Positions 26,534-28,284 of a stretch of DNA of 46,129 nucleotides are shown in pieces. This stretch comes from Calditrichota bacterium (GTDB lineage: Bacteria; Electryoneota; B3-LCP): contig JAGVQJ010000158.1 of NCBI GenBank assembly GCA_020051775.1, positions 1-46,129 on the forward strand. The letters run 5' to 3'. The notes beneath the pieces were generated by a model that was not told where the DNA came from, ran no database searches, and was given only the letters and a program-made list of their open reading frames with translations. Every line of letters begins with the position of its first letter. The first letter of the stretch is position 1. Position numbers and translations under genes: made by a program.

Positions 26534-27808
26534 TTATCGGTTCATATCCGCTTGGATCTCTTTAATTCTCTGCTCAAAATCATCATTCTTTCCTCCAACA
26601 AGCTGTAAGGCTTTTTCTTCTGCAGCGATGGCCTCAGCGTATTGCCCCTGTTTCCACAAGACCATGCTCAGGGTATCCCACACGTTGGCGTCATCCTTCA
26701 GGACTATAGATTTGCGGGCCGCCGCTTCGGCGCTGGCCAAATTCTTGCCTGCCAATGCCCAGAACCAGGCGTATTGGTTCAGCATTATGGCCTCGTCCTG
26801 GAACTTATCCGCGACAGCCTGACCGTAGACCTCCAGAGCTCGATCATCCCTTCCGTTCGTCAACAGTAGAGTCGCGTAAGCTTCCGTTAGTCTGCTGTTG
26901 AATTCATCTGGGTGACTCTGAAAATGCTTTTCTCCCGCTGCAATGCCCTGTTCGACGTCTAACTTCAGTTCAGAACAGGCTAGAACATATCCGGCAAGGA
27001 GCGTAGGATCATCGGGATAGCGCTTCATGAGTTGGCGATAAATATCGAAAACCCCTGCCTTCTTTTCCGAATTGTAGAAGTAGTTGTTCAATCTCCAGAG
27101 CGCGGGTTCTCGCAGTCTGGTTTTGGGAAACTCATCCAGAAATTTCAATATCGCCTGGGGTTCTGAATAGATGCTGGTATATTTAGCGTATTCGTAAGCG
27201 GTGGTTTCCCAATTGGCGATCTTCACCGAGAGCTTACGAGCCTTTTTCGGTCGTGCCAGTATTTTTTCGCTTAACTCGCGCATGGTTTTATAATCATCGC
27301 GATCTTCATATTTGTACGCCAGCTCAGCCATGACTTGCAGGTTATCGGGGTCTTTCTGTAGACTGCGCAACAATGCCAGGAATGTATGTTCTCCGGTTAT
27401 AGCTTTCTCGATCCTGCCCGAGAATTTGTCCGCCGGTGGGCCGTAGCCGACCACCCGGTCAATCTCTTCGCCGTCGGCGGTGGCGATGAGAACCGTAGGA
27501 GTGGCATGAACGTTGAACTGACGGTAGAGCCAATCACCGAGGGCGGTCGAATCCCCGGTGCGAACGGCGTGGAGGGGTATATAATGGCTGGTGAGGAAGT
27601 CGGCAAACTTTTCGTTTCCAAAGTACTGCTCATCGAGCAGTTGGCAGGCGCTTCAACCGGCGCCATAAAAATCCACCAAAATCAATTTATTCTCCAATGC
27701 CGCCAGGGTCTTGGCAGCGTCAAAAGTTCCTTCATACCAGTTAACGGCCTGGCAAACCGGCACCGACACACATAGAAATAGGGCGGCGCTGGTAATCATT
27801 CTTTTCAT
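26534..27808 (-). CDS. Putative selenoprotein: secreted thioredoxin-like domain (UxxC, Sec52 at TGA 27653-27655) fused to TPR repeats
   Basis: Reverse-strand translation from ATG 27808: MKRMITSAALFLCVSVPVCQAVNWYEGTFDAAKTLAALENKLILVDFYGAG[TGA]SACQLLDEQYFGNEKFADFLTSHYIPLHAVRTGDSTALGDWLYRQFNVHATPTVLIATADGEEIDRVVGYGPP... continuing in the same frame into the 306-aa track ORF (TPR region). The track ORF starts only at the first GTG after the TGA. Confidence 0.8.
27618..27644 (-). promoter_or_regulatory. Candidate bacterial SECIS element
   Basis: Minus strand after TGA: AGCGCCTGCCAA-CTGCTC-GAT-GAGCAG-TACTTTGG. Perfect 6-bp stem (27626-27640), loop starting with G, 18 nt after the TGA, plus a lower CCAA/TTGG stem. 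Confidence 0.65.
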
Positions 27809-27951: not shown

Positions 27952-28284
27952 ATGGATCATCATCTAACGACAACCGCCTTCACTCTGGATGGGTATCAGA
28001 TCACTAAAACCCTGGGCGTAGTGCGCGGCATCATCGTGCGGTCGCGCAGTATATTCGGCACCATCGGCGGATCGCTGCAAACGTTGGTAGGCGGCAACAT
28101 CACTCTGTTTACTGAATTATGCGAAAAAACTCGCAACGACGCTTTCGAACAGATGGTGACCCATGCTGAGGCGCTGGGAGCTAATGCTGTCGTCGGGGTG
28201 CGATACGATGCCACGGAAGTCATGGGAGGCGTTACTGAAGTTCTGTGCTATGGGACGGCCGTGATCGTGGAACCACAACGGTGA
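27952..28284 (+). CDS. YbjQ/UPF0145 family protein
   Basis: [75 protein letters not shown]. Confidence 0.92.

Follow-up and report, generated by a model that had tools for sequence, protein, structure and literature searches.

Known SECIS elements and UxxC selenoproteins

The classic bacterial SECIS elements are those of the formate dehydrogenase mRNAs of E. coli. In the consensus model of the bacterial SECIS (bSECIS; PMC13188914, Fig. 2A), a loop of 3–9 nt closes a stem of 4–16 bp and carries a G in one of its first two positions. The loop lies 16–37 nt from the UGA, and the minimum free energy (MFE) is at or below -7.5 kcal/mol. The loop G is mostly followed by G or U, which is usual, not required (PMC13188914). 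Thioredoxin-like selenoproteins with a UxxC motif have been described in the Sargasso Sea set (PMC1088965), and SaoT, HUIPC-type proteins and others belong to the same kind (PMC13188914). Two complete sel operons with two non-identical tRNA-Sec are present in Photobacterium profundum 3TCK (PMC5330540), the only case of two selB/selA/tRNA-Sec sets that was found in the literature accessible without subscription.

The hairpin analyzed here lies in the window, i.e., the whole 46,129-nt stretch of DNA under study. With a probability of about 95%, judged from sequence comparison, it is the bacterial SECIS of a selenoprotein gene, the UGA of which would be read as selenocysteine (Sec) in a thioredoxin-like protein. 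A bacterial SECIS in the gene of a thioredoxin-like UxxC selenoprotein is a kind already known, and this gene is a further example. The features are as follows:

26534–27808, minus strand: predicted selenoprotein gene, open but for one TGA, with Pfam matches and AAAGGAG before the ATG
27653–27655, minus strand: UGA codon, predicted selenocysteine U52 in the motif GAG-U-SAC, aligned with the first Cys of CxxC
27618–27644, minus strand: larger element with a CCAA/TTGG lower stem, the lower stem being unsupported
27626–27640, minus strand: apical hairpin CUGCUC-GAU-GAGCAG of the putative bacterial SECIS, supported by folding, the contrast between UGA and Cys genes, orthologues and the recurring loop

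The gene and its product

The ORF of 425 codons starts at the ATG at 27808, with AAAGGAG a short way 5′ of it, and its stop codon ends at 26534. A single in-frame TGA is present, at 27655–27653, beyond which 372 codons follow without interruption. Translated with this TGA as Sec, the product counts 424 residues with U52 and can be divided in three parts: a signal peptide-like N-terminus, a thioredoxin domain (residues ~24–130) and a TPR-rich C-terminal half. Its Pfam matches are Thioredoxin_2 (PF13098, 3e-11, 44 bits for a cut-off of 27), Thioredoxin_7 (PF13899, 8e-9, 36 bits for a cut-off of 27) and TPR_14 (8e-9), and the thioredoxin homology is found on both sides of the TGA. The Sec site reads DFYGAG-U-SAC-Q, in which the UxxC is Sec-Ser-Ala-Cys. 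The product would be an exported thiol/selenol oxidoreductase.

The protein shares the thioredoxin fold with the known thioredoxin-like UxxC selenoproteins and, as in these, Sec takes the place of the first Cys in CxxC. Unlike these, it combines a thioredoxin domain at the N-terminus with a TPR half behind it, and its GAG-U-SAC lacks a Trp before the CxxC. No match to the SaoT/HUIPC-type family models was obtained in an NCBIfam scan of the product. The best-scoring selenoprotein model is TsoB (NF045694, rhodanese/DsbD fusion-like), of which the DsbD/thioredoxin-like part aligns (residues 19–135). The score of 32.6 bits for a cut-off of 805 leaves the protein outside this family, and it carries a TPR half instead of the rhodanese part and UxxxxU motif of TsoB.

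A small ORF (27952–28284, plus strand) is divergent from the selenoprotein gene and has, by eye, a YbjQ/UPF0145-type-looking sequence. A peroxiredoxin-like gene, also recognized by eye from the translations, is located close to the selenoprotein gene in both genomes carrying the loci L019 and L020. The two genes may form a functional neighbourhood.

Structure of the hairpin

The hairpin is located exactly where a preliminary description had placed it, with the stem strands CTGCTC (27640–27635) and GAGCAG (27631–27626) on either side of the loop GAT (27634–27632). The spacing of 18 nt between the UGA and the loop was also given correctly, the stem CUGCUC beginning at the 13th nt past the TGA. 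Folding had been proposed as a check; that of a 66-nt region places the hairpin in both the MFE and the centroid structure, with preference for the apical G loop. This fold has an energy of -23.5 kcal/mol (z -2.65; 1 out of 200 shuffles equally good) and extends the stem to 7 bp by an extra A-U pair (27641 A, 27625 U). The 48-nt fold reaches -11.5 kcal/mol and the hairpin alone -8.4 kcal/mol. The possible lower CCAA/TTGG stem fared less well: a 3-bp CCA/UGG helix is formed in the 48-nt fold, but it is absent from the 66-nt fold, and the stem is not conserved, as the two nearest orthologues lack it.

Like the elements covered by the bSECIS model, the hairpin sits directly 3′ of the UGA within the coding frame. 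The 3-nt loop on 6–7 bp, the G within the first two loop positions (GAU), the spacing and the energy of the hairpin alone all fall within the limits of the model. It differs from the model by the absence of a conserved lower stem and by its loop GAU, which departs from the usual G followed by G or U. An Rfam scan of the window at gathering level returned no matches.

The fit to the consensus had been put forward in favor of the hairpin. The window hairpin does fall within the constraints of the model, but this is much weaker evidence than assumed. In a sample of 20,000 random codon positions from the genome (G000), 61.5% of the coding positions have some hairpin that fits the loose SECIS geometry. 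Hairpins of -7.5 kcal/mol or better are present at 3.6% of the positions, and those of -8.4 kcal/mol or better at 2.4%. The frequency of GAU triloops with a stem of at least 6 bp at 16–20 nt is 0.03%, a descriptive figure, as this class was defined post hoc. Because the geometric fit is so common at random positions, the case rests on comparison.

Comparison across relatives

The reading of the TGA as a recoded codon at a UxxC site is supported by the homologues. A first search gave 25 homologues with Cys, from the same phylum and from other phyla, in which the first Cys of the CxxC falls exactly at U52. In 81 aligned relatives, collected by a scan of named genomes and from earlier loci, the position is occupied by UGA in 37 (some near-copies included), Cys in 41, Ser in two and Trp in one. 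The record titles of the UGA relatives name Zixibacteria, Neomarinimicrobiota, Acidobacteria, Aminicenantes, Gemmatimonadota and others. The in-frame UGA, the two-sided homology and the U/Cys interchange that mark a selenoprotein gene are all present, and the genome holds selA, selB, selC and selD.

The same hairpin finder was applied to the distinct sequences, 35 UGA and 39 Cys genes. A model-type hairpin with negative energy was present in 31 of the UGA genes versus 11 of the Cys genes, with mean energies of -5.7 and -0.6 kcal/mol, respectively (Mann-Whitney p 2.5e-10, uncorrected for ancestry). No model-type hairpin is found in four of the 35 UGA relatives, the distance from the UGA differs in many others, and a few Cys relatives also have a stable hairpin. 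The preliminary description had named UGA orthologues devoid of a conserved hairpin as an observation that would speak against it; this situation did not occur, the UGA orthologues keeping a hairpin at the site.

Covariation, which had likewise been suggested as a check, is clear in 11 UGA relatives with a UGGAN loop: 16 double-sided changes were counted, a result reached in none of 500 shuffles, and slid controls performed worse. Both covariation and loss with Cys, as expected for a bSECIS, are observed, the three closest sequences, which form the window's own subgroup, contributing a single covarying pair. The other members are L020, identical to L157 (isolate SURF_9, the gene of genome G002), and L158, from Prado141. 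In these two nearest orthologues the stem occupies the identical position, and one of its pairs is changed from C-G to U-A. The loops of the subgroup differ, being GAU in the window, GGUCG in L020 and GGACA. Over 48 nt, the fold of L020, the closest orthologue, is no better than those of its shuffles (z 0.09). A phylum-wide search for orthologues of the thioredoxin/TPR gene yielded mainly DsbD-like Cys proteins, and a close orthologue in G002 only.

Among the other explanations, the best surviving one accepts the UGA as Sec and denies the window hairpin to SelB, its pairing being a by-product of the coding of L-L-D-E-Q. The loop G indeed lies within a conserved Asp/Glu codon, which makes its conservation partly protein-driven, and loose hairpins are common. 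This explanation is nevertheless very unlikely: the Cys homologues, under equal protein constraint, are mostly without hairpin, the stems covary, and a GAU triloop is also present in protein families in which the surrounding codons are quite different.

We give still less credit to a pseudogene or a sequencing error, in which a Cys codon turned into TGA next to a coincidental hairpin. The same TGA is found at the same position in dozens of separately assembled relatives (the 37 aligned loci), the hairpins of these UGA relatives are mostly missing in the Cys relatives, and the long frame beyond the TGA is undamaged. These observations outweigh the single substitution that separates TGA from TGT or TGC and the draft state of the genome, which consists of 196 contigs, the window being one of them.

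A reassigned UGA, read as Trp or Gly (codes 4 or 25) with no need for a SECIS, would explain the frame that is open across the codon. It is highly improbable, since the codon aligns with a catalytic Cys, and not with Trp or Gly, and since the genome contains tRNA-Sec with a UCA anticodon together with SelA, SelB and SelD. In addition, reassignment would give thousands of in-frame TGA, but only 39 candidates were found in 1.14 Mb. An intrinsic transcription terminator, to which the compact stem-loop of 6–7 bp bears some resemblance, can practically be dismissed, as the hairpin lies inside a long coding frame, no T-tract follows it, and a terminator scan of the minus strand found none here.

Doubled selenocysteine machinery

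The genome G000 (4.07 Mb in 196 contigs, 94.7% complete, 0.9% contamination) encodes two tRNA-Sec(UCA), two SelB and two SelA, with all SelA and SelB proteins scoring over their family cut-offs. A single SelD is present, which is itself a UGA gene and adjoins one of the tRNA-Sec. The duplicated genes are located as follows:

selA: contigs C70 and C24 (L017, L018)
selB: contigs C7 and C86 (L009, L010)
tRNA-Sec: contigs C151 and C83 (L001, L002)

Where a single Sec machinery is usual, two SelA, two SelB, two distinct tRNA-Sec and one SelD are found in all six genomes (G000–G005) of family f1, an uncultured lineage; in this count, G003 contributes its second SelB as a fragment at the edge of a contig, and an extra SelD-like protein of G002 scores below the family cut-off. 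Two SelA and two SelB are also present in the incomplete genomes G010 (family f6) and G015 (family f7), in each of which one tRNA-Sec was found. The other genomes examined in the phylum have at most one Sec set. The two tRNA-Sec types have distinct sequences, one of each occurring per f1 genome. The two SelB are deeply diverged (~37% identical), and the two sets occupy separate places while sharing one SelD.

In the trees, the groups that join SelB1 and SelA1 of f1 are those of f6/f7, then those of f2. The SelA2 proteins of f1 cluster with the second SelA found in f6/f7 (93/89), and SelB2 of f1 forms a clade of its own with an unresolved placement. Near the C-terminus, SelB1 has the motif S[ST]RK[FY]TTPxL versus C-x-R-[RK] and a PG tail in SelB2, in a region that, from what is established for SelB, would be the SECIS-binding winged helix.

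An artefact of assembly or contamination was considered for the double set and rejected: the copies fall into separate clades, each of which spans the genomes of the family, and SelB1 and SelB2 of G005 are on contigs of 359 and 433 kb. At the sequence level, the double machinery is real and conserved. It resembles that of Photobacterium profundum 3TCK in having two whole Sec gene sets in one genome. The latter is reported for one genome, whereas the f1 family has two diverged sets in all six genomes.

Other UGA genes and their loops

The 39 candidates, which include the window gene and selD, were obtained from 1.14 Mb of G000 scanned for an in-frame TGA with a two-sided coding signal and a hairpin. 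Two groups of secreted proteins emerge from this lineage. The first consists of FG-GAP propeller proteins that end in a Por secretion tail and conserve a UGA-Cys pair in the motif YG-U-C-xxAAPQ[IM]VDW. This group has 23 UGA matches (17 in f1, six in f2); its loci are L111, three genes upstream of selD, as well as L382 and L395–L420, and are often close to sel genes. Their loops are GAU, AGAUG or AGAUC, with AGAUG in six out of six f2 genes and GAU in the majority of the f1 genes, and a central pair changes from A-U to G-C between f1 and f2.

The second group is repeat-rich and secreted, with the same Por tail and the motif U-x-x-CGGGGIR; Pfam reports the tail domains only. Judged from their repeats, these proteins are probably right-handed beta-helices. 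All 31 UGA matches (L348, L388 and L422–L451 among the loci) are in f1, f6 and f7, the families with two Sec sets. A GCGG-GAU-CCGC hairpin, 20 nt past the UGA, is nearly invariant in this group, and an outer pair covaries. The Gly-Ile-Arg is written GGG-ATC-CGC in all 27 UGA genes that were read, for genome frequencies of these codons of 0.17, 0.53 and 0.41. No description of FG-GAP or beta-helix selenoproteins was found in the open literature, the scope being papers free of subscription, and both groups of secreted UGA proteins are undescribed so far.

Dozens of further UGA genes in this lineage share the GAU loop of the window hairpin. In almost every genome of the phylum, selD belongs to the UGA genes (L277–L283 and other selD loci). 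Its SECIS loop is GGA in f1 and GGU or GGA in f4, f5 and f8, the SelB of which are other clades; it is AGUU-type in f2, which has SelB1 only, and possibly GAU in G010.

In the f2 genomes, the SelB1-type system is the sole one present, and the loops of the FG-GAP UGA genes are AGAUG, which suggests that the GAU-type loops belong to SelB1. On the same comparison, we regard the window hairpin, with moderate confidence, as a client of system 1. A broader and more tentative scheme, which we consider possible although rather doubtful as a whole, would have two parallel Sec systems, each equipped with a SelA, a SelB and a tRNA-Sec of its own, and both served by one SelD. SelB1 would read GAU-type and SelB2 GGA/GGU-type loops, the loop being decisive, and the window hairpin and many secreted selenoproteins would depend on system 1.

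Proposed mechanism and significance

The decoding of the UGA as Sec and the binding of the window hairpin by SelB are inferred from sequence. SelD would supply selenophosphate, and SelA would make the Sec-tRNA-Sec. The hairpin 3′ of the UGA, bound by SelB, would then direct Sec to position 52, and of the two SelB copies, SelB1 is the putative reader. The result would be an exported thioredoxin-fold/TPR protein with a UxxC redox site.

Taken alone, the hairpin contributes a well-supported SECIS, together with a thioredoxin/TPR selenoprotein, which would be cut in two at the UGA by standard annotation. The larger import lies in a bacterial family with two diverged Sec machineries and in two secreted groups, in which dozens of UGA codons are conserved. 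Should the SelB pair prove truly loop-specific, it would constitute a natural, ready-made orthogonal pair for Sec insertion, and the co-evolution of SelB and SECIS would become directly testable.
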